From Candidatus Thermoflexus tengchongensis (GTDB taxonomy: Bacteria > Chloroflexota > Anaerolineae > Thermoflexales > Thermoflexaceae), in assembly GCA_016842085.1 (NCBI GenBank), contig JAEVEX010000006.1, positions 1 to 64,000 on the forward strand: 64,000 nt of DNA, written 5' to 3'. The notes below the pieces were generated by a model. The model worked only from the letters and a program-made list of their open reading frames with translations, did not search any database and had not been told where the DNA came from. Position numbers and translations under genes: made by a program. Below are positions 4,892 to 22,132 of this stretch, one piece after another (the stretch's first letter is position 1; each line of letters starts with the position of its first letter).

Positions 4892-4952
4892 ATCCCCCCG
4901 AACCCGGTCTGTGGGCGAAGGGCGGCCAGACCGTGGGCCTTCCCTGTTCGCG

Positions 4953-6182
4953 TCAGCCATGGGCGGAATCGCCCGCTTGCAGAAACCGCGCATAGAGCTC
5001 ACGTAAGGCGTCCCCGGGACGCGCCTCGTAATCCTCGGGCACCGGCAATGGGGCCGGAGGAGAAACGACCGGGCGCTTCCGGGCGGCGAAGCGGGCGACG
5101 GCTTCCACGGCGGGTTTTCGGCTCCCATCCGGCCGCAGCAACCCGAAGTGCCGCTCGTGCACCAGCCGGTCGCACGGGGGGCGATCCCACAGATCCGGAT
5201 GGTAATCACTGAAACACCAGATGAACGCCCCCAGCGCTCCTGCCTGATACAGGGCCTCCAGCGCTCGCTCCAGGAAAGCAGCTGCTTCCTCTTCCGAAAT
5301 GAGGGTTACCTCAAGGGAGCGATCTTCCAGCCGGATCGGAACCTTATAGGTGGGTTGACCTGGTGGGGCCGTGGGCAGCCCGAACTCTTCGAAGAGCACG
5401 GGTTTCCCACCCAGGCTGGCGGTGAGACGCGTCAGGAAGGCCAGCGCCTGCTCATCCAGCGGATGCCGCGCCCATCGGGCGTAAACCGGGTAGCCGTGCA
5501 TGCAAAGGAAATCCAGCATGGGCGCCAGGGTGCGGATCCGAAATCCCAGATCTTCCTCCAGGACCGGGCTATGGAAGCCGATGGTGATGGGATGTGCTGG
5601 GTCAAACGCCCGAAGGGCCTGGGTCAGGGTGGATAGCCAGCGGGCCGCCGCCTCCGGCGTGCGGGGGCGTAACACGAGATCCGGCTCGTTCCCCAGATCC
5701 CAGGCGAGCAGGGCTGGGTGATCTCGCAATGCCTGTGCCGCCGCTTCCAGCATCCGAACCTGGGCTTCCAGGGCGAGGGGATCCTCGTAAAGATCCCGAA
5801 GGCGTCCTTTCACCGTGCGCCCGCCTGCGATCAGGCGAAAGCGGGGATCGCTTTCCCGCTCCCCGTTGAGCAACCACGGTGGCAACCAGTTAACCCCGCT
5901 CATATGGCCGGTGAACAACGTAACGATCACCCGCAGCCCATGCATGTGGGCCAGGTCCAGGACCTGACGGAGACGCTCGAGCATCCGTGGATCCACGGCA
6001 TGAGGTTCGGGCATGAAATCTTCCCACATGAGGAAGATGCGGACCCCATCCAGATGCCACGAGGCGATCTCCGCCATATCGGCCCGGACTTCTTCGGGGT
6101 CAAATTGTTTCCACCAGAACATCGCTTTGGTGCGCGGCCAGTAATTCACGCCGACCAGAAAATGAAAACCCCATGCCGCCAT
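4953..6182 (-). CDS. GH5-like glycoside hydrolase (putative mannanase/mannosidase)
   Basis: The protein (about 409 residues) is a TIM-barrel glycosidase. It starts near FHFLVGVNYWPR, has the acid/base motif DLGNEP and the nucleophile motif LFEEFGLP, matching clan GH-A and resembling GH5 endo-mannanases. No signal peptide is visible, so it should act in the cytoplasm on imported oligosaccharides. The ATG at 6182 is preferred over the TTG at 6206 because GGAGGG lies just before it. It is the last gene of the operon with GH130 and the Opp-type transporter. Beta-mannan specificity is inference. Confidence 0.72.
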   Translation of the reverse strand: MAAWGFHFLVGVNYWPRTKAMFWWKQFDPEEVRADMAEIASWHLDGVRIFLMWEDFMPEPHAVDPRMLERLRQVLDLAHMHGLRVIVTLFTGHMSGVNWLPPWLLNGERESDPRFRLIAGGRTVKGRLRDLYEDPLALEAQVRMLEAAAQALRDHPALLAWDLGNEPDLVLRPRTPEAAARWLSTLTQALRAFDPAHPITIGFHSPVLEEDLGFRIRTLAPMLDFLCMHGYPVYARWARHPLDEQALAFLTRLTASLGGKPVLFEEFGLPTAPPGQPTYKVPIRLEDRSLEVTLISEEEAAAFLERALEALYQAGALGAFIWCFSDYHPDLWDRPPCDRLVHERHFGLLRPDGSRKPAVEAVARFAARKRPVVSPPAPLPVPEDYEARPGDALRELYARFLQAGDSAHG

Positions 6183-6202
6183 CGGCGTTCCCTCCACAAG
6201 AA

Positions 6203-7078
6203 TCAACGTCCCCGGCAGAATCGTTCCACATCTTCTTTCTGAACTGTCGCCACCCCGATCACCGTATCAGCCCCGCCGTAGTAAACATAATATGTGCCAT
6301 CAATCTCCACGGCTCCACATGTGAAAACCACATTGGGGACCTGTCCCTCCCGTTCCCATGGGGTTTCCGGGGAAAGAATGGGTGCTTCCTGGCGTCGGAT
6401 CACCCGGGCGGGATCTTCCAGATCCAGGAGGGCGATCCCGAGCCGATACACCCGATCATCATCCACCCCATGGTAGAAGAGCAGCCAGCCCCATTCCGTC
6501 CGGATCGGTTGCGCGCCAGCTCCGATCTTCCAGGACTCCCAGGTCCCCGGACGGGGCCGCATGATCACCTGATGATCCGTCCAGTGGATCAGATCGTCCG
6601 AATAGGCGAGCCAGATGTCCGGGGGTCTCCGATGGAGCATCGCATACCGCCCGTTGATCTTCTCCGGGAAGAGGGCCGCATCCTTGTTGTCTTCATCCGG
6701 AAGAAGAATCCCGTGTCGCGTCCAGGTGATGAAGTTCGTGGTGGAGGCCATGGAGATCCGGACCTCGGACCCAGAGTAGGCGGTGTAAAGGACATAGAAT
6801 TTCCCTTCCAGCCACGTAATGCGCGGATCCTCCACCCCCCGGGCTTCCCAGGGCGCAGCCGGGCTCAGGACCGGCTGGTCCAGCCGGTAAAAGGTGAGGC
6901 CATCCGGGCTGACCGCATACCCCAGGCGGGAGATCATATCCTCGCCCATGGCCCGGTAGAGCATGTGAACCAGGCCGTTATGATAGACAACGCCGGCGTT
7001 AAAGACATAGCGGGACTCCCATGGATGATGGGGCAGGGGTTTCAGGATGGGTTCAGGATGACGGGTGAGATGAAGCAT
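6203..7078 (-). CDS. GH130 family glycoside phosphorylase
   Basis: The product (about 291 residues) is a five-bladed beta-propeller enzyme of the GH130 type. Motifs include VFNAGVVYHNGLVHMLYRA, GVEDPRITWLEGKFYVLYTA and YVYYGGADTVIGVA. GH130 enzymes phosphorolyse beta-1,4- or 1,2-mannosides such as mannosyl-glucose and manno-oligosaccharides, giving mannose-1-phosphate. The ATG at 7078 follows AGGAGGG and is preferred to upstream starts. The pairing with a GH5-like gene and an oligosaccharide-type importer supports a mannoside pathway. The exact linkage cannot be read from sequence. Confidence 0.85.
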   Translation of the reverse strand: MLHLTRHPEPILKPLPHHPWESRYVFNAGVVYHNGLVHMLYRAMGEDMISRLGYAVSPDGLTFYRLDQPVLSPAAPWEARGVEDPRITWLEGKFYVLYTAYSGSEVRISMASTTNFITWTRHGILLPDEDNKDAALFPEKINGRYAMLHRRPPDIWLAYSDDLIHWTDHQVIMRPRPGTWESWKIGAGAQPIRTEWGWLLFYHGVDDDRVYRLGIALLDLEDPARVIRRQEAPILSPETPWEREGQVPNVVFTCGAVEIDGTYYVYYGGADTVIGVATVQKEDVERFCRGR

Positions 7079-7298
7079 CGGAGCCCTCCTCATGATCGTG
7101 TTGAGATGGGATACGGCGGGCAACCTCCCGCCGGATGGACCAGACCAGAAGCGCCAGGAATCCCCCGCTGATCAGCAGAGCCAGAACATCCACCACGAAG
7201 GCGGGAGATCCGGGTGACAGGAAGGGAAGCGCCATCAGGGCAAGCAGGAACAGCGTCAGGCCCATGGTGAAGGCGAGGCGGCTGAGGGCGGGCGCCAT
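7053..7298 (-). CDS. Small two-helix membrane protein
   Basis: An 81-residue ORF overlaps the end of oppF and the start of the GH130 gene. It has two hydrophobic segments (LAFTMGLTLFLLALMALPFL and VVDVLALLISGGFLALLVW) and a charged tail. The ATG at 7298 has GGAG upstream with good spacing. I do not recognise the family. Tight packing in the operon and two clear membrane helices suggest a real gene, perhaps a transporter accessory. Confidence 0.6.
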   Translation of the reverse strand: MAPALSRLAFTMGLTLFLLALMALPFLSPGSPAFVVDVLALLISGGFLALLVWSIRREVARRIPSQHDHEEGSDASSHPSS

Positions 7299-8287
7299 GG
7301 GGGGATCTCCTGAGCGAAATGGCAGGCCACCTGGTGATCGGCCGGACCTTCCAGGGCAGGTGGGGTCTCCCGACAGATCGGTTGGGCGTAAGGGCAGCGC
7401 GGATGGAAGCGACAGCCGGAGGGCGGCCGTCGCGGATCCGGCGGATCGATCTCCTGAAGCGCCACCGGGCGGGTCGCCTGTGCGATCCGGGGATCCGGGA
7501 CGGGAACTGCGGAGAGAAGGGCCTGGAGATAGGGATGACGGGGGTTCTCCAGGACCCTGCGGAAGGCACCGTGCTCCACGATCTTCCCCAGATACATGAC
7601 CGCCAGCTGCCCTTCCTCCGCCAGGTATCGGGCGGTTGCCAAGTCGTGGGTGATATAGAGGATGGCGATGCCCAGGCGGCGGTTCAGCTCGCGCAGCAGC
7701 TGCAGGATGGAGAGCCGTAGCGAGACATCGATCATGGAGACCGGCTCGTCGGCCACGATCAGGCACGGCTGCACCGTGAGCGCCCGGGCGAGGAGCACGC
7801 GCTGGCGCTGGCCCCCGCTCAGCTGATGGGGATATTTATCCAGGAACAGCTCCGGCGGCGTCAGCCCGACCTGTTCCAGGAGCTCCGCTGCCCGCTCGCG
7901 GGCCTCCCGTTCATTCCGGGCGATCCGGTGGTGAAGAAGAGGGGCCTTTAATGATTGATAAACCGTGCGGACCGGGTTCAGGGCGGCGAAGGCGTCCTGA
8001 TGCACCAGCTGGACAGCCCGCCGGTATTTGAGGAAAGTGCGACGATCCATGGCCCATAGATCCTGTCCCTGGAAAAGGATGCGCCCCCGGGTCGGTCGGT
8101 AGAGGCCCGCCACCAGTTTGCCCAGGGTGGTTTTCCCGCTTCCGGTTTCCCCGACCAGCGCCAGGATCCCGCCCTCGGGGATCGTCAGCGATACCCCAGC
8201 GACTGCCTCCACCCGCTCCCGCGAGAGCCATCCTCGTCGGAAGATCAGCCAGACCTCTTCCAGCGCAACCAGTGTTCGGTTCCTCAT
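7256..8287 (-). CDS. Oligopeptide/oligosaccharide ABC transporter ATPase (OppF/DppF type)
   Basis: The product has Walker A GETGSGKTTLGK, signature LSGGQRQRVLLARAL, Walker B CLIVADEPVSMID, and the C-terminal OppF zone with a CRFHPRCPYAQPIC cysteine motif (CxnCP..C, an Fe-S or metal motif typical of the family). It powers import together with the OppD-like ATPase encoded just upstream. The start is uncertain: the ATG at 8287 fits homology, while a GTG at 8386 would add 33 unlike residues. The D at the Walker B end precedes S rather than the usual A, a mild change. Confidence 0.88.
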   Translation of the reverse strand: MRNRTLVALEEVWLIFRRGWLSRERVEAVAGVSLTIPEGGILALVGETGSGKTTLGKLVAGLYRPTRGRILFQGQDLWAMDRRTFLKYRRAVQLVHQDAFAALNPVRTVYQSLKAPLLHHRIARNEREARERAAELLEQVGLTPPELFLDKYPHQLSGGQRQRVLLARALTVQPCLIVADEPVSMIDVSLRLSILQLLRELNRRLGIAILYITHDLATARYLAEEGQLAVMYLGKIVEHGAFRRVLENPRHPYLQALLSAVPVPDPRIAQATRPVALQEIDPPDPRRPPSGCRFHPRCPYAQPICRETPPALEGPADHQVACHFAQEIPPWRPPSAASPSPWA

Positions 8288-14736: not shown

Positions 14737-15021
14737 TACAGTGATGCCACCCTGGAAGAGCTGGTGGTGCTTCACCGGCCGCGCATTCGGGAGAAGTACG
14801 GCCTCAGCGACGAGGATATTCGCACCGTGGTGGCGCTGATTCTCCTCCGGGGAGAGCACATCACGCCCCAGGTACAGATCCGTGCATGTCGTGACCCTCA
14901 CGATGACAGGTTCCTCGAGGGGGCGGTGAGCGGCCGGGCGGACCTCATTGTCAGCGGCGACGAGGATCTGCTTGTCCTCCCCACGTTACTGCCATTCCCG
15001 GAGTGGCTGCTCCCAGCCTGA
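14737..15021 (+). pseudogene. PIN-domain toxin remnant, N-terminus missing
   Basis: The frame reads SDATLEELVVLHRPRIREKYG through RACRDPHDDRFLEGAVSGRADLIVSGDEDLL, the middle and C-terminal part of COG1569-type PIN toxins (RNases of toxin-antitoxin pairs). A TAA lies directly before the recognisable part. The first 40 or so residues, including the conserved N-terminal Asp (DTNV), are absent, and no antitoxin is next to it. The later acidic residues (DPHDD, SGDEDL) remain. It is most likely an inactive leftover of an accessory module. Confidence 0.7.
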
Positions 15022-15101: not shown

Positions 15102-15608
15102 TTACTCCGGCAAGCGGGCCCTCCACTTCCAGAAGCCAATATGGATCGGAGCCGGCCCCCAGAGCCCCCACTCCTGAAGGATCCGTCGCATCGCCCGGTC
15201 GCCTTCCGGAGAGACGGAATACCAGAGGCCATCAAATTGAGTTGAGCCGGGGCCGATCAGGCCTTCCAGGAATACCACTCCCGACGCGCCGTTCCGGGGT
15301 GGATAGTAGATCAGGCGATCCCATGGGATCCATTTGCCTCCCTCCCGGATGTAGCGGGTGATGACCACGCCTTCTCCCGGATGGGGGGAAGGATCCATGG
15401 GATGGGTGATGTCTTCGAAGCCAAAGAAGGCGAAGGCCTGAAGGAGCTGGGGATCTGTGATCTCCACCTCCCTGCATAATCCAGGGACACGGATGACAAC
15501 CTTATCAGGCGGGCCTTTTGCCAGCACGGGTCCCGGAGCCATCATCCAGACCAGCCAGGGGACCCATGCGATGCCCAGCAGGGCCATCTTGCGGCTTTTC
15601 AAGAGCAT
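15102..15608 (-). CDS. Predicted secreted protein, unknown family
   Basis: This 168-residue product starts at the ATG at 15608, directly behind a perfect AAGGAGG. It has a signal peptide (about residues 8-30, ending PVLAKG) and a mature part with no family that I recognise (VVIRVPGLCREVEITDPQLL, EDITHPMDPSPHPGEG). The ORF track merges it with two upstream genes in the same frame (15102-16538). It is the last gene of the Cys-rich cluster and may share that function. Confidence 0.65.
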   Translation of the reverse strand: MLLKSRKMALLGIAWVPWLVWMMAPGPVLAKGPPDKVVIRVPGLCREVEITDPQLLQAFAFFGFEDITHPMDPSPHPGEGVVITRYIREGGKWIPWDRLIYYPPRNGASGVVFLEGLIGPGSTQFDGLWYSVSPEGDRAMRRILQEWGLWGPAPIHIGFWKWRARLPE

Positions 15609-15640
15609 AAATACCTCCTTCCAAGGAGCGATCGGTCGCT

Positions 15641-16007
15641 TTACGCATCCAATGAGGTGCGGCCATAGAACACGACGTAAGAGCCATACACGTATTGGCA
15701 ATTGGGCTGGCATGGGGCATCTTTCATCAGGCACTCGCAACATGAGGTAAGCAAAGCCCGTGCTGTCCGTGCAATACCAGCACCACTGGCCCGCGGAGAT
15801 CGAAGATGGGCAGCCGCTGGGACATGGAGTCGAAGAAGGGGGTCGGCATAGTTGGTAGCATCCATAGGTATAAGCGTAGGCTTCTTGAGCGAACACAGGA
15901 ATCAGGGAGAGCGCCATGCCCAGGATACTCCCTGCCAGTTTCGCCAGGAACCGCCGCCGGGTGAGAACCCGGCCCATCGCTTCCACCAGCTCCTCCTGAA
16001 CGGTCAT
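15641..16007 (-). pseudogene. Cys-rich exported protein with Tat-like signal, frameshifted
   Basis: Starting at ATG 16007 behind GGGGAG, the frame reads MTVQEELVEAMGRVLTRRRF, a Tat-type RRRFLAK signal. A Cys-rich domain follows (CYQLCRPPSSTPC, WCWYC). Near 15745-15765 the homology moves to another frame, continuing SCCECLMKDAPCQPNCQYV and ending at 15641. The paralogue at 16992-17363 shows the intact order (WCWFC then YKCCEA), so one base was gained or lost here. Whether this is mutation, sequencing error or recoding cannot be told. The Cys pattern recalls the methylamine dehydrogenase light chain, but the second cofactor Trp is not evident. Confidence 0.65.
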
Positions 16008-16984
16008 CGCTCCCCCTCGGAGGAAGGCCCATGCGGTCCCTCCACCACGCGGCGCAGGTCCGCACATCCCAGCCGCAATCCCCACTGGAGCACCCGGTAG
16101 CGGAAGTTCCCCTCCTCCCAGAGCAGGGCGGTGGCGTCCTCCGGGGGGCTCTGGATACAGCGGGCGGGCTGGCCGCGGACGAGCAGGCGCTCTGTCGGAC
16201 CGATTGGATTGGGCGGCCCGCCCTGCCATCCCCGCCGGGCGGTCTCCACCACCAGCACCCCATAGCCCCGCGAAAAGACCGGTGCCTCCACCCACCCTCC
16301 TTCTCGACTCCACACTCCCTCTCGTCCCCACCATAGCCGTTCCTGTTCCTGAACCACCGGGATATACACTTCGCGTATCGCCCCAGGCAGATCCTTCACT
16401 TCCAGCTCCTTTAAAAAGGACCCTTCCGGCAGCCACCTGACCCCCAGGGGTTGGAAGGGCAGCCGCACCACCAGCACCACCACCCGCAACGAGGCTTCCC
16501 CCAATGGCCCTATCACCCGGCCTGTCAGCTCCCAGCATCCTTCGCTGGGGAAATACATGCTGCCCGCCTGAAACCCCAACATCCCATACCCCGGCAGATC
16601 ATATTTGCCCACGGCCGGGGGAGCTGGAGCATCCAGCCGGCGCCCCACCACCTCCAGCCGGCCCGGAATCCCCCGATCCCATCCCATTTTCCAGACCAGC
16701 GAGCCATCTGGACGCCACTGCTCGGGATCAGGGGCGATCGTCCCAGCGCCATCCATCCACAGAACACCATTTCCATGGCGCTCAGGGACAGGCGGGCCCA
16801 CGCGAATGGGATCCGGTGGATTGCGGCCGTTGGGAGAGGTGACTGGACACGCGCGGAGGGCAGAGGAGGTGAGGGTGGGGAGAGAAGGAGGCAGGCGGGT
16901 GGAGTCCCCAACGAAGGATTTCCGTTGGGAAGAAGTAAGCGCGCATGCGGTCGCCAGAAGGCAAACGATCAACCCTCGACGCAA
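16004..16984 (-). CDS. Predicted lipoprotein paralogue A
   Basis: A TTG start at 16984 gives MRRGLIVCLLATACALTSSQ, a lipoprotein signal. It follows a GGGGGAG-containing region at the end of the previous gene. The paralogue at 19588 begins similarly (MRRVLRLG...VAC), which supports this choice over the ORF-track start at 17098. The conserved body includes WDRGIPGRLEVVGRRLDAPA and FPSEGCWELTGRV. The C-terminal half (about 150 residues) is absent in paralogue B. Function unknown. Its end overlaps the Cys-rich gene start (16007), suggesting cotranscription. Confidence 0.65.
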   Translation of the reverse strand: MRRGLIVCLLATACALTSSQRKSFVGDSTRLPPSLPTLTSSALRACPVTSPNGRNPPDPIRVGPPVPERHGNGVLWMDGAGTIAPDPEQWRPDGSLVWKMGWDRGIPGRLEVVGRRLDAPAPPAVGKYDLPGYGMLGFQAGSMYFPSEGCWELTGRVIGPLGEASLRVVVLVVRLPFQPLGVRWLPEGSFLKELEVKDLPGAIREVYIPVVQEQERLWWGREGVWSREGGWVEAPVFSRGYGVLVVETARRGWQGGPPNPIGPTERLLVRGQPARCIQSPPEDATALLWEEGNFRYRVLQWGLRLGCADLRRVVEGPHGPSSEGER

Positions 16985-16991
16985 GGCACCT

Positions 16992-17363
16992 TCACTCCCC
17001 CATGCCCGGCTCTGGAGCATAACCTGTCCGCTCATACCAGGAAGCAAACACCTTATCGCAATCCCGAGCGCAGGTAGCCCCCGGGTTCTTAGCCTCACAG
17101 CATTTATACGTGCGGGATCCGTAGTCGCAGAACCAGCACCACTTCGTCTGATACGGATGGTTACCGGTCGAGCAATCCGGCAAGCTCAGCGGACCTCCAG
17201 GGGGGTGACAGAGATGACAGCAGGCCACATCATAGGCTTCGACAAAGGAAACCCGCCGCATCGCCATGGCTGCCCCCAGGACGGCCGCCCCCAGCCTGAC
17301 CAGGAACTGGGGGCGGGCGATCACCCGCCCCACGGCCTCCACCAGCGCTTCGTGAAACGTCAT
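16992..17363 (-). CDS. Cys-rich exported protein, intact paralogue
   Basis: The 123-residue product starts MTFHEALVEAVGRVIARPQF, matching the paralogue at 16007, with GGGAG upstream of ATG 17363. The signal region aligns with a Tat signal, but the twin arginine has become R-P (ARPQFL). The mature domain has ten cysteines (CCHLCHPP, WCWFC, YKCCEA, CARDC). The WCW[YF]C and Yx-CC motifs are shared by both copies, so disulfide or cofactor chemistry outside the membrane is likely. A distant likeness to the methylamine dehydrogenase light chain is possible but unproven. Confidence 0.65.
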   Translation of the reverse strand: MTFHEALVEAVGRVIARPQFLVRLGAAVLGAAMAMRRVSFVEAYDVACCHLCHPPGGPLSLPDCSTGNHPYQTKWCWFCDYGSRTYKCCEAKNPGATCARDCDKVFASWYERTGYAPEPGMGE

Positions 17364-17742
17364 CGCCATACTCCCATAGGGATCATTAGACCCCGTCCCA
17401 GCCGATGCGGATCCCCCCGGAGCATCCATCCCTGCCGGCATAACCGCCTGACTGGGAAACCGATAACCGTGCCCCTCCTCCTACCCGCAGGCCCCCATCT
17501 ACCTATCCCCCATCATAGCCGCCTTGCGGCCCCATGGATCCGCCCGGAGAGGAGCACCTGGCCTACCGGCTGGTGGGCCGTCCGTTCCCCACCGTCGCCG
17601 CGGGAACCCGGAGCCCCGCTCCGGTGTATTCCCTCATGAAAATCCCCTTCGGAGCCCGGCGGCCCCCGGGCCCGGGATCGCCCCGGGGAGAAGGAGCCGG
17701 GCTCCGGAAAAGGGGCCGAACGCCGGAGAACAGGAGGCCGAT
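17364..17742. promoter_or_regulatory. Divergent intergenic region
   Basis: This 379-base region separates the minus-strand Cys-rich cluster from the plus-strand regulator. I see no clear -35/-10 pair and no RNA gene. It should carry both divergent promoters. Confidence 0.35.
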
Positions 17743-18477
17743 ATGCGTGAAGCGATTCTCTGGGTGCGGGATGCGCCGGCGATCGCCGTCGCCCTGGCCC
17801 GGGCCCTCACCGAAACCCTTGGACAGCCCGCTCGCCCCTTCCCACTCTCCGCTTCCCATCTTCCGCCCGGGCCCGCGCTGCTGGAGCTGCGGGCCCCCGG
17901 AGCCGCCCTGCTGCTCCGGGCCGCGGCCCGCTCACGGGCTTTCCCTCTTGCCGTCATGACCACCAGCCCTACTCCCCTGGAGGCGTGGGTGATCGGGGAG
18001 CTGGGCCTGGAGGGGGTGATCGATAAGCAGGAGCCCTGGCCCCGCTTTGTGGAGCGGGTGGAGGCGCTGCTCCGGGGGGAGCCCGCCTGGTCCCCCCATT
18101 CCTGGACCGCCCGGCAGGCCTTCGAACCGGCCTGGGGGAGGCGGCTGCGAAGCCTGAGCCCGGCGGACTGGCAGCGATGGCGGGATCTGACCACCGGGCT
18201 GCCGGTGAAAGCCCTGGCCTGCCGCTGGGAGTTGTCTCGCCAGGGAGCGGTGAAGGGATTGGTGCGGCTATATCGACGGCTGGGAGTAGCGGACCGATGG
18301 GCCGCTGCCCTCCTGGCCCATGAGCTGGGCATCGTGCGGTTCGAGGAGGGAAGGATCGGCTGGTCCGAAGCCATTGAGGCGTATCTCGCCGGTCGGGAGC
18401 CGGACCTCCTCTCGCAGCGCTCAATCTCCGCCGCAGTCTCCGCCCTCGCGGGGATGCTGCCGCACGAATCACCTTAA
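17743..18477 (+). CDS. LuxR-type (response-regulator-like) transcription factor
   Basis: The 244-residue product starts at ATG 17743 behind CAGGAGG. The N-terminal half looks like a degenerate receiver (ILWVRDAPAIAVALARAL) without a clear phosphoacceptor Asp. The C-terminal part resembles a LuxR helix-turn-helix (LSPADWQRWRDLTTGLPVKA, ELSRQGAVKGLVRLYRRLGV). It is divergent from the Cys-rich/lipoprotein cluster and may control it. The ORF track start at 17524 is too far upstream. The family assignment is moderate. Confidence 0.6.
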   Translation: MREAILWVRDAPAIAVALARALTETLGQPARPFPLSASHLPPGPALLELRAPGAALLLRAAARSRAFPLAVMTTSPTPLEAWVIGELGLEGVIDKQEPWPRFVERVEALLRGEPAWSPHSWTARQAFEPAWGRRLRSLSPADWQRWRDLTTGLPVKALACRWELSRQGAVKGLVRLYRRLGVADRWAAALLAHELGIVRFEEGRIGWSEAIEAYLAGREPDLLSQRSISAAVSALAGMLPHESP

Positions 18478-18491
18478 TACGAGAACCGCGC

Positions 18492-18515
18492 AGGGCAACT
18501 GCTTGCAGTTGCCCT
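18492..18515 (+). terminator. Hairpin after LuxR-type gene
   Basis: AGGGCAACTG pairs perfectly with CAGTTGCCCT around loop CTTG, 14 bases after the stop. The T-tail is weak (ACTTCC). Confidence 0.5.
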
Positions 18516-18641
18516 ACTTCCACGACAGGATGGCGTTCTTACCTTTCCGCCGGGGAGGCGCCCTGGCAGTAACGGCCCGCGTATTCCACATCAGAGGCGT
18601 AGACTTTTGTGCCGTCCCCTGCGCATGGAGCGCCCACATCC

Positions 18642-18959
18642 TTACTCTTGTTCTTCGTTCAGCTCCTTCAGGATTCGCTCCAGGTCCTCCAGAGGGATCC
18701 ATCCCCATGCGTGGAGGCGGTGGGATCGATCCAGGACCGCGGTGGCCGGCAAGACGTTGAATCCGTATTGTCGTCGCAGATCCCCCTCCGGATCGTGAAG
18801 CCAGCGGATCTCGGAAGCCCCGGCCGATTGCAGAGCGCGGCAGGCGGCCTCTTCCCCTTCGCAGATCCCCACGAGGAAGCGCCGGATAGGAGCGGGCAAC
18901 CTCTTCGTGGCCTCGAGGAATTCCGCGCATGCGCTGCAGTCGGAGGAGACAAAGAGCAT
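18642..18959 (-). CDS. Thioredoxin-like protein (MauD-like), N-terminally truncated
   Basis: The 105-residue frame begins MLFVSSDCSACAEFLEATKR, giving a CxxC active site, and has the cis-proline region YGFNVLPATAVLD. It matches the thioredoxin core of MauD-type proteins, which are normally longer, with an N-terminal membrane helix and about 100 residues before the CxxC. A TGA lies just before the ATG. The preceding DNA belongs to lipoprotein paralogue B in another frame, so a deletion probably fused the two genes. Activity is doubtful without export. Confidence 0.6.
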   Translation of the reverse strand: MLFVSSDCSACAEFLEATKRLPAPIRRFLVGICEGEEAACRALQSAGASEIRWLHDPEGDLRRQYGFNVLPATAVLDRSHRLHAWGWIPLEDLERILKELNEEQE

Positions 18960-19588
18960 GGATCACGCCCGCGCTCGGGGAAGGGGCGCAAGCGGAGCAC
19001 CAGGACGACGAAGGTGAGGGTGTGAGAGTCAACACGCCCGGTGACCTCCCAGCAGCCCTCGGTGGGGAAAATCAAGGTGGAGACCTGGAAGCCGGTGTCG
19101 CCATAGCCTGGCGGCACATGGGCCCGGAGGGGTGGAGCGGGGGCGTCCAGACGTCGCCCTTCGATCTGTAAGGTCCCGGTGATGCCCACGCGATCCCATC
19201 CCCACTTGATCGGGATCGAGCCATCGGGCAGAGGATACAGAGGAAGCAGGCTCCCAGGCCATTTCCCTATATCAATGGGCCACGGTCCAGGATACATATC
19301 CGTGGGCCACGCCCCACGATATCCTCGCTGCCGGGGAGCTTTAAAGACGAGCTTCCCGCCTTCTGGGATATGGGTGAACAGGGTTTGCTGGGGGTTGCTG
19401 TAGTTGCCCCCCACGCCCAGCGGAGGTTTGAGAAAAGTCATGGGAAGGCTGACGGGACAGGTGCGGACCAGGCGCTGGATCTCCGCCCAGGAGAGCTCTT
19501 TGGAGGCGTGGGGCGGTGGAGCCGTCTGACAGGCGACGATCCACCATCCCATCCAGCCGATCAGACCCAGCCGGAGGACCCGACGCAT
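18668..19588 (-). pseudogene. Lipoprotein paralogue B, truncated and out of frame at the 3' end
   Basis: Starting MRRVLRLGLIGWMGWWIVAC (lipobox VAC), the first 210 or so residues match paralogue A (WDRVGITGTLQIEGRRLDAP, FPTEGCWEVTGRV). From about 18960 the frame runs through the thioredoxin gene in the wrong frame and stops at 18668, so the last 100 residues are not meaningful. The C-terminal half found in paralogue A is missing. This fits an internal deletion joining lipoprotein and thioredoxin genes. Confidence 0.6.
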
Positions 19589-20062
19589 GGCATGTCCGTC
19601 TCCGCATCGTTTTCAGGCGAGAGCCCCCGGATCCCAGGCCCGGGCGAGCATGGCCCCTAAGAACGCGATCCCCCAGCCGGTCCGGTGGTCGCCGCCCGAG
19701 GAACCCGCCATCCGAACGCTTGCCCGGAGAGCCCCCGCGAAAAGGACCCGGGCGTCCTCCTGGCCCCTGTTCGATTCCTGCTTCCCATGATAGCCCTTCC
19801 GTGGCCCTGGAGATCGATCGGGAAGGGAGCATCCGGTCCACCGGCCGGTGGACAAAGGATTCCCGGGAAATGGGAACACCCGATTCGTTCCCGGTGTTAT
19901 TGTTTCAGAGACGGGACGTGGGGACGCAAGGCGGCTGTGCCCTTGACGCCGGGGTCAAGCCTCCTCAAAAATAAGAAGGCCTGCGAAGCGAGACACCGCC
20001 CCGATCTTCGGAGAGCTTCCACCCTGTTGCTCCCTGAAAATCCCCACGGTCGGGAGGCGCGG
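19589..20062. other. Gene-free stretch before the ECF sigma gene
   Basis: A 474-base region with overlapping spurious ORFs. A CTTGAC-GCCGGG-GTCAAG inverted repeat lies at 19942-19959, about 100 bases before the sigma gene, and could be a regulatory site. I see no protein family in either strand. Confidence 0.35.
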
Positions 20063-20641
20063 TTGGAGCGGAAGGATCGGGCGCATCCGCCGGAGGGGCC
20101 GGATGAGGCGCTATGGGAAGAGGTGATCCGCCAGCATCAGGAGCCGGTCTTCCGGTTGCTCTATCTCATGCTGGGCGACGCCGAGGAGGCCGCCGATACG
20201 GCCCAGGAGACCTTCCTCCGGGCGTTCCGGGCCTGGGACCGTCGGGACCCGAACCGCCCGCTTCGTCCCTGGCTGCTCCGCATTGCTGTCCATCTGGCCC
20301 GGAACCGCCGCCGCGCCCTCGGGCGTTACTGGAGGGCCCTCCACCGCTGGGCCCGGCTCCAGGGCCCGCCCTCGGGAATGAGGGATGAAATCCTGGAGAC
20401 CGTCGCGCGGCAGGAGGAGGCGGAGCGCCTCTGGCGGGCGATCCGGCGTCTGGGGCTCATCGATCAGGAGACGATCTATCTGCGCTATTTCCTGGAGCTG
20501 TCCGAAGCGGAGATCGCTCAGGTCCAGAACGTGGCCATCGGCACGGTGAAATCCCGTCTGCATCGCGCGCTCCATCGATTGCGCGCCGTGGTGGAGCGGG
20601 AATTCCCCGACCTCATCGGCAGGCCTCATGGGGAGGGTTGA
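20063..20641 (+). CDS. ECF-type RNA polymerase sigma factor
   Basis: The 192-residue product has sigma region 2 (EVIRQHQEPVFRLLYLMLGD, AADTAQETFLRAFRAW) and region 4 (QETIYLRYFLELSEAEIAQV, VAIGTVKSRLHRALHRLR). ECF sigmas direct polymerase to stress or envelope genes. The TTG start at 20063 sits right after GGGAGGCGCGG. The ORF-track start at 19685 is not supported. The stop overlaps the ribosome binding site of a membrane-protein gene, a typical sigma/anti-sigma layout. Confidence 0.9.
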   Translation: MERKDRAHPPEGPDEALWEEVIRQHQEPVFRLLYLMLGDAEEAADTAQETFLRAFRAWDRRDPNRPLRPWLLRIAVHLARNRRRALGRYWRALHRWARLQGPPSGMRDEILETVARQEEAERLWRAIRRLGLIDQETIYLRYFLELSEAEIAQVQNVAIGTVKSRLHRALHRLRAVVEREFPDLIGRPHGEG

Positions 20642-20642
20642 G

Positions 20643-21419
20643 ATGGAGCCTCGTCCGCCTTCCGAATGGGAGGATCGCGTCCGGGAGCTCGCCCGGCAAT
20701 TCCCTTACCCTCCGGCTCCCGATCTCCGAAGCCGGATCCCGCGTCCCGGGGTGAGGCGGCCCCGGGGCCGGCGCTGGGCCTGGGCGGCTGGGGCCTTCGG
20801 CGCTTTCATGCTGGCGCTGGGGATCCTCCTGGCCTCCCCGGCCCGCGCAGGGCTCCTGGAGTTCCTCCAGATCGGAGCCGTGCGGATCCGGCTCCAGCCT
20901 CTCCCAACCCCATCGAAGCCGGGCGCAACTCCCACGCCGGCCGCTGAGGCCGTCCCGGAGACCCGCATGCCGGGGATCCTGGACCTGGCGGGGGAGACGA
21001 CCCTGGAGGCGGCGCAGGCCCGCGTGCCCTTCCCCATTCGTCTGCCCACCTATCCGCCGGATCTCGGGCGCCCGGATCATGTTTATCTGCAAGGCATGGG
21101 CGGGCCGGCGGTGATCCTGGTGTGGCGGGATCCCATGCGGCCGGATCGAATCCGGCTCGCCCTGTTCGAGATCGGCCCGGGAGCGCTGATCGAAAAGATC
21201 ACGCCGCGGGTGCTCACCGCCACCACCGTGCATGGCCGGCCGGCCCTGTGGGCGGAAGGCCCTTACCTCCTGCAGACCCGATCCGGCGGCTGGGAGCTGC
21301 GGCGGCTGGTGGAAGGCCATGTGCTCCTCTGGACCGAGGGGGAGGTGACTTACCGGTTGGAGACTGATCTGGGGATGGAGGAAGCCGTGCGGATCGCGGA
21401 GTCTCTGTCCGCTCCGTAG
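20643..21419 (+). CDS. Single-pass membrane protein, putative anti-sigma partner
   Basis: Starting at ATG 20643 behind GGGGAGGG (one base past the sigma stop), the 258-residue protein has a short cytoplasmic N-terminus, a membrane helix (about 42-68, WAAGAFGAFMLALGILLASP), a Pro/Thr linker (TPAAEAVPE) and an outer domain resembling DUF4367-type sensor domains (GRPALWAEGPYLLQTRSGGW). The zinc HxxxCxxC anti-sigma motif is absent. Its role as anti-sigma is inferred from position. Confidence 0.6.
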   Translation: MEPRPPSEWEDRVRELARQFPYPPAPDLRSRIPRPGVRRPRGRRWAWAAGAFGAFMLALGILLASPARAGLLEFLQIGAVRIRLQPLPTPSKPGATPTPAAEAVPETRMPGILDLAGETTLEAAQARVPFPIRLPTYPPDLGRPDHVYLQGMGGPAVILVWRDPMRPDRIRLALFEIGPGALIEKITPRVLTATTVHGRPALWAEGPYLLQTRSGGWELRRLVEGHVLLWTEGEVTYRLETDLGMEEAVRIAESLSAP

Positions 21420-21595
21420 CGTTCATCCGGGATCTTCCCGGAGCGGACCCCAGAATGTATTTTTCCCCCAGGGAAAAGTGGCCGCTATCCTGCGCCCCGA
21501 TTACAATAATCCCGGTTATCCGAAATCCGGGCGCTCCTTCCGCCTCGGAGGAGTTTTCCGGCCCGGGTGGATCTGAACCCCTCAGGAGGTGTCGC

Positions 21596-22132
21596 ATGGC
21601 CGTGGAGCGCTTTGGGGCGGTCACGTTTCGCGGCAAGCCGTTGACGGTGATCGGGGAGCCCCTGCGGGTGGGCGATCCGGCCCCCGATGTGGAGCTGGTG
21701 GCCCCTGATCTGAGCCCCTTCCGGATCCGCAGCACCGACGGCAAGATCCGCATCCTCAGCGTGGTTCCCTCCCTGGACACCGGGGTGTGCGATGCCCAGA
21801 CCCGCCGGTTCGACCAGGAGGTGGCCCAGTTTGGAGATGAGGTCGTGCTGATCACCGTCAGCGCCGATCTCCCCTTCGCCCAGCGCCGCTGGGCCGCCGA
21901 GGCCAACGCCCAGCACGTGATCCTGGCCTCGGATCATCGGGAGATGGCCTTCGGGCAGGCCTACGGGACATGGGTGAAAGAGCTGCGCCTGGAGCAGCGG
22001 GCGGTCTTCGTGCTGGACCGCGATGGGACGATCCGATATGCGGAATATGTCCCCGAGATCGCCCAGCACCCGAACTACGACGCTGTCCTCGAGGCAGTCC
22101 GCACCCTGGTAGGCCAGCCGGAGCCCCGCTGA
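21596..22132 (+). CDS. tpx: Thiol peroxidase (Tpx), one-cysteine variant
   Basis: This 178-residue peroxiredoxin starts MAVERFGAVTFRGKPLTVIG behind CAGGAGGT. It has the peroxidatic motif PSLDTGVCDAQTRRF and the following SADLPFAQRRW. It reduces hydroperoxides using reduced thioredoxin. In E. coli Tpx the resolving Cys lies in RFCGAEG. Here the same place reads RWAAEAN, and the protein has only one Cys. It should therefore form an intermolecular disulfide or use another reductant. The ORF-track start at 21455 is not supported. Confidence 0.92.
   Translation: MAVERFGAVTFRGKPLTVIGEPLRVGDPAPDVELVAPDLSPFRIRSTDGKIRILSVVPSLDTGVCDAQTRRFDQEVAQFGDEVVLITVSADLPFAQRRWAAEANAQHVILASDHREMAFGQAYGTWVKELRLEQRAVFVLDRDGTIRYAEYVPEIAQHPNYDAVLEAVRTLVGQPEPR

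Follow-up and report, generated by a model that had tools for sequence, protein, structure and literature searches.

To our knowledge, MauE and MauD have hardly been described in any role beyond that of methylamine dehydrogenase accessory proteins. In the mau cluster of methylotrophs, MauE and a MauD-like thioredoxin adjoin a small cysteine-packed protein exported by the twin-arginine translocation (Tat) pathway. According to a passage of PMC7794033 citing van der Palen et al. 1997, MauE is linked to disulfide formation in the beta subunit of methylamine dehydrogenase. In Streptomyces, MauE with or without MauD occurs beside precursors with at least eight cysteines, in clusters proposed to belong to ribosomally synthesized and post-translationally modified peptides (RiPPs; decRiPPter, PMC7794033). 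In this study, we analyzed an island of genes for exported cysteine-rich proteins (CysR), lipoproteins and a thioredoxin fragment at positions 15102–19588 of a 64,000-nucleotide stretch of Candidatus Thermoflexus tengchongensis (contig JAEVEX010000006.1, positions 1 to 64,000; the window). As a whole, the island is probably best explained as a damaged Chloroflexota operon in which MauE and MauD fold a Tat-exported CysR that acts with a linked surface partner.

The same predicted CysR-lipoprotein operon also occurs elsewhere in Chloroflexota, in a different family as well as in different classes. An earlier sequence-only reading of the window had grouped the cysteine-rich and lipoprotein families into one system, which is borne out by other genomes where both families are found together and the gene neighborhood is kept (G018, G483, G001). 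In G018, from another family, the order is ABM-like protein, MauE, MauD (CxxC), membrane protein, CysR, lipoprotein, CysR, lipoprotein, and in G483, outside the class, it is membrane protein, ABM-like protein, CysR, lipoprotein, MauE, MauD. A further divergent set in G001 comprises MauE, MauD, a CysR-like protein, a lipoprotein and a membrane protein, while G536 and G420 encode MauE, MauD, a CysR-like protein, a membrane protein, an ABM-like protein and a lipoprotein with a PxxGCW motif. Candidatus T. sinensis (G005) has an alternating array of nine CysR genes and lipoprotein genes, spread over two contigs. CysR proteins carry a Tat signal, 10–16 cysteines and the pattern ACCxLC...WCWxC...CCE; the twin-arginine signal model TIGR01409 matches 10 of 13 family members, with CysR A of the window unmatched. 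Relatives of CysR were detected in 5 of 100 related genomes, in 8 of 396 from the class (weak matches included) and in 6 of 400 drawn across the phylum (weak matches and the genome of the window included). Homology links the ABM-like proteins of the different operons, and likewise the cysteine-poor membrane proteins, that of G483 only weakly. The ABM-like protein shows weak similarity to PF13826/PF03992, below the cut-offs. The membrane protein was also considered as a CcdA/DsbD thiol relay and rejected, since its best PF13386 score was 18.8 against a cut-off of 24.9 and the G018 protein contains no cysteine.

Compared with the mau cluster, the Chloroflexota operon adds the lipoprotein, the ABM/af470-like protein and the membrane protein, its partners are duplicated in arrays, and its cysteine-rich protein is not a PF02975 member. 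With the Streptomyces RiPP candidates it shares MauE (there with or without MauD) and a small precursor with at least eight cysteines without other mau genes, a likeness of cluster make-up; the Chloroflexota precursor differs in having a Tat signal and in pairing with PxxGCW lipoproteins. The combination that delimited those clusters in PMC7794033 (MauE, a precursor with at least eight cysteines, no other mau genes) is found in the intact relatives; the window has lost MauE and does not show it. The core domain of both window lipoproteins belongs to an unnamed PxxGCW lipoprotein family of Chloroflexota that has no Pfam entry.

By its profile scores, MauE of the intact operons is a clear member of PF07291 (G018, 90.4 bits; G227, 99.2 bits; lipoprotein-MauE open reading frame (ORF) of G008, 89.7 bits; cut-off 27). 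The thioredoxin reached 46.3 bits (E=3.3e-12) with TIGR02661, for which the cut-off is 188.6, and is thus to be classed as MauD-like and not as MauD proper. MauE was matched in 116 of 301 genomes of the phylum, and the surroundings of 60 of the top-ranking MauE loci were surveyed for ORFs combining a Tat-type motif with a hydrophobic stretch and seven or more cysteines. Such an ORF was located on the same strand within 3 kb at 21 of the 60 loci, and on the opposite strand at none. At 1–2 kb downstream of MauE, 16 of these ORFs were counted against 0.29 expected from the rate at 4–10 kb (Poisson P ~7e-23, indicative only because the loci are not all phylogenetically independent). The MauE-linked cysteine-rich proteins form several families that do not align with each other, one of them (L155) belonging to PF02975.

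Several further arrangements were observed at loci with MauE. A genuine PF02975 (MauA-like) Tat protein adjoins MauE at L155:10952-11443 (G613:C32), in a genome where MauB was undetected; it has a Trp near the first position of the tryptophan tryptophylquinone (TTQ) cofactor and a later SWC motif, and is thus MauA-type, apparently without a heavy chain. At L074–L078, ORFs of about 490–840 aa combine a MauE domain with a thioredoxin-like CxxC domain. A small conserved protein with GRVI[IV]ELW is encoded downstream of MauE/MauD-linked CysR-like genes at L124, L135 and L149. Judged by eye, MauE/MauD-linked cysteine-rich genes adjoin FtsX/MacB-type permease-like genes at L062 (G426), L060 (G483), L139 and L152, some of these loci also holding an ATP-binding cassette (ABC) ATPase, e.g. 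in G426.

By alignment with G008, the closest relative holding the locus and our reference for the deletion, the window island is a damaged copy of the operon that is intact in relatives. Window positions 18956–21999 align to G008 4950–7992 and positions 18644–18958 to G008 2646–2960, each with ~95.6% identity, and the 1,989 bp of G008 between these blocks are absent from the window, with a few bases of shared sequence at the deletion junction (18955–18959). Encoded in the missing stretch are the MauE domain, a first MauD-like protein (MauD1), the ABM/af470-like protein and, of a second MauD-like protein (MauD2), the N-terminal half. In G008, the lipoprotein B ORF runs on in frame into the MauE domain; a PxxGCW lipoprotein domain and a complete MauE domain there share one ORF (L022:4377-5606, G008:C19). 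Lipoprotein B of the window (18957–19588, minus strand) is truncated at the junction and comprises a signal/lipobox (MGWWIVAC) and an FPTEGCW core domain. The thioredoxin fragment noticed by the sequence-only reading is present as a 3′ part (18642–18959, minus strand), which now has to be read as a remnant at the edge of the ~2 kb deletion: it is the predicted remainder of the second MauD-like protein, retaining SSDCSAC (CxxC) and lacking the N-terminal membrane helix. Elsewhere in the window's genome, a MauD1 orthologue was not found (weak thioredoxin matches only), nor was an ABM-like gene, and a search for full MauE (PF07291) gave only marginal partial DoxX-like matches, the best with E=3.8e-5 covering positions 4–87.

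The two paralogous Tat-type cysteine-rich genes, the two paralogous lipoprotein genes and the secreted protein described in the sequence-only reading were all confirmed on the minus strand. The gene of CysR B (15644–16007), with a Tat signal (RRRF) and an intact WCWYC, is frameshifted by an indel near 15755: the upstream part reads WCWYCTDSTGFAYL and the continuation CCECLMKDAPCQPNCQYVYGSYVVFYGRTSLDA is in another frame, as are the CC motif and the last ~34 residues (remainder CCECLMKDAPCQPNC...). The orthologue in Candidatus T. sinensis is open through this point. The downstream partner of CysR B is the secreted protein (15102–15608) of an LAKGPPDKV... family, in an order identical to that in Candidatus T. 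sinensis. CysR A (16992–17369) has 10 cysteines in its mature part, WCWFC and YKCCE; its Tat motif is apparently degraded, reading ARPQFL in place of the twin arginine (RRQF or the like) seen in almost all relatives. Its partner lipoprotein A (16004–16984, 326 aa) consists of an FPSEGCW core domain and a genus-specific C-terminal domain. None of the cysteine-rich, lipoprotein or secreted proteins of the window had a Pfam match. For lipoprotein B and the MauD fragment, dN/dS was 0.25 and 0.36, compared with 0.05–0.26 for flanking genes; as these values are not clearly above those of the flanking genes, dN/dS was dropped as a signal of decay, and the damage may therefore be recent. The window copy would be non-functional.

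The link between CysR and its neighbor was analyzed by a mirror test of the mature CysR against the core of the downstream lipoprotein, which gave r=0.88 (p=5e-5, 12 pairs) and, within six paralogous pairs of one genome, again r=0.88 (p=0.0015). In the array of Candidatus T. sinensis, the lipoprotein C-terminal tail and the Tat signal of the next CysR are homogenized in blocks of 110–350 bp with 88–96% DNA identity, whereas mature CysR and the lipoprotein core are divergent, which fits an exchange of CysR-lipoprotein cassettes between conserved flanks. An obligate pair was rejected from the lipoprotein side, the domain being widespread without CysR; because it is more widespread than CysR, the lipoprotein can be regarded as a recruited partner.

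From these data, we propose the following mechanism. In the intact relatives, CysR would leave the cell through the Tat pathway. On the outer side of the membrane, its 10–16 cysteines would be oxidized or isomerized by MauE (CGCFG pair) and membrane-anchored MauD (CxxC), in the way assumed for the methylamine dehydrogenase light chain, and disulfides would actually form. Mature CysR and the lipoprotein from the adjacent downstream gene would then act together on the cell surface, presumably by physical binding, and for CysR B the secreted protein would take the place of the lipoprotein. The ABM-like and membrane proteins would also have roles, and the ABM-like protein might oxidize CysR, e.g. 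at a conserved Trp. The idea of an exported cysteine-rich protein system with MauD-type disulfide handling but without a heavy chain is supported, as intact relatives carry MauE and MauD-like thioredoxins.

Six points weigh against this explanation. The AlphaFold models were poor (predicted local distance difference test scores of 53 and 47). By the survey criteria, a CysR-like ORF was missing at 39 of the 60 MauE loci. The lipoprotein domain occurs in 29 of 400 genomes, and most members of its family stand alone without CysR or MauE. In the MauD2 homologue of Candidatus T. sinensis (L019:2975-3511, G005:C201) the CxxC is lost (DPENPASA), which suggests a non-redox role or decay. The co-divergence of CysR and lipoprotein could stem from duplication of linked genes alone. 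Finally, the deletion and the frameshift in a 3.9-Mb draft genome could in principle be assembly errors; the damage is more likely real because the gap is exact, the two blocks flanking it have equal identity and the contig measures 103 kb. Searches of PDB profiles with the CysR and lipoprotein alignments gave chance-level matches only. A fold search with the low-confidence lipoprotein model gave weak partial immunoglobulin-like sandwiches, none with E<=0.001, and was not used as evidence.

The best-surviving alternative, though a tentative one, regards CysR proteins as secreted competition peptides of RiPP or bacteriocin type that are matured by MauE and MauD, with the lipoprotein as immunity or receptor protein of the producer and with arrays diversifying by cassette exchange. 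The tandem array of nine CysR genes in Candidatus T. sinensis, its homogenized tail and Tat-signal blocks around divergent mature parts, the patchy presence of CysR (4 of 9 genomes of the genus) and the FtsX-type permease genes beside related modules, with an ABC ATPase in G426, are all in line with this, as is the RiPP proposal for the Streptomyces clusters (PMC7794033). However, neither a peptidase/export cassette nor a modification enzyme nor a known bacteriocin family is present in the CysR-lipoprotein operons, the lipoprotein domain often occurs where CysR is missing, and CysR A compared with its Candidatus T. sinensis counterpart is under purifying, not diversifying, selection (w=0.155). 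A bolder and rather unlikely version of the MauE/MauD explanation would be a Chloroflexota surface effector family, in which MauE and MauD fold Tat-exported cysteine-rich proteins that diversify as CysR-lipoprotein cassettes for competition or recognition, the ABM/af470-like protein possibly oxidizing the Trp of WxC.

It is less probable still that the cysteines hold a metal or iron-sulfur center and that CysR, as a small protein, serves in redox reactions or metal trafficking, with MauD keeping its thiols reduced. The dense cysteines with CC and CxxC pairs would suit such a center, and Tat export is typical of cofactor-loaded proteins. Against it, no metal-protein Pfam model matched above its cut-off, the membrane protein that might relay electrons has no cysteine in G018, and MauE is tied to disulfide formation in the passage of PMC7794033 mentioned above.

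Membership of CysR in the MauA family, as implied by the sequence-only comparison with the light chain, did not hold. PF02975 gave no match to CysR up to E=10, where a real MauA scores 181 bits, and no match in the window's genome; profile-profile comparison with hhalign gave a probability of 0.2% (E=0.37, with shallow alignments). W77 and W79 of WCWxC are invariant in alignment A1, while the C-terminal Trp is not conserved, so that the second Trp of the TTQ type is unconserved. The heavy chain MauB (PF06433) was matched in 0 of 10 genomes, in a weak search in which no positive control scored either. On this evidence, a true light chain relative with a TTQ-like modified Trp cofactor is very improbable, despite the shared E-D-A type neighborhood, Tat export, the loosely similar CPPG...W...CC pattern, the retained Trp of WxC and the authentic PF02975 protein at another locus of the same type (L155). 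The analogy to MauA is therefore right for the module and wrong for the protein.

Within the island, the plus-strand gene at 17743–18477 that had been described as a divergent regulator exists and has the same position in G008, but its regulatory role is unproven: no Pfam model matched above cut-off, and the C-terminus is HTH-like (helix-turn-helix) by eye only. An assignment as LuxR regulator is unsupported; true LuxR-type genes adjoin some related modules (L023, L149). Beside the island, the C-terminal portion of a PIN domain (PF13470, 32 bits) is encoded at positions 14764–15021, apparently left over from a toxin-antitoxin system.

MauE and MauD beside cysteine-rich precursors have already been proposed in Streptomyces; new here is the Chloroflexota CysR-lipoprotein operon, of which we found no description in the literature searched. 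The Thermoflexus genome paper (PMC8129789) mentions neither MauE nor cysteine-rich proteins. The CysR-lipoprotein cassette is newly delimited here as a gene pair that duplicates and for which neither Pfam nor NCBIfam has a dedicated family. Our data suggest that MauE and MauD of Chloroflexota are commonly dedicated helpers of many otherwise unrelated exported cysteine-rich proteins. Thereby, their function becomes testable outside of methylotrophs, and they provide a handle for finding such proteins. If the surface effector idea were true, MauA would represent one specialized branch within a broader class of MauE/MauD clients.

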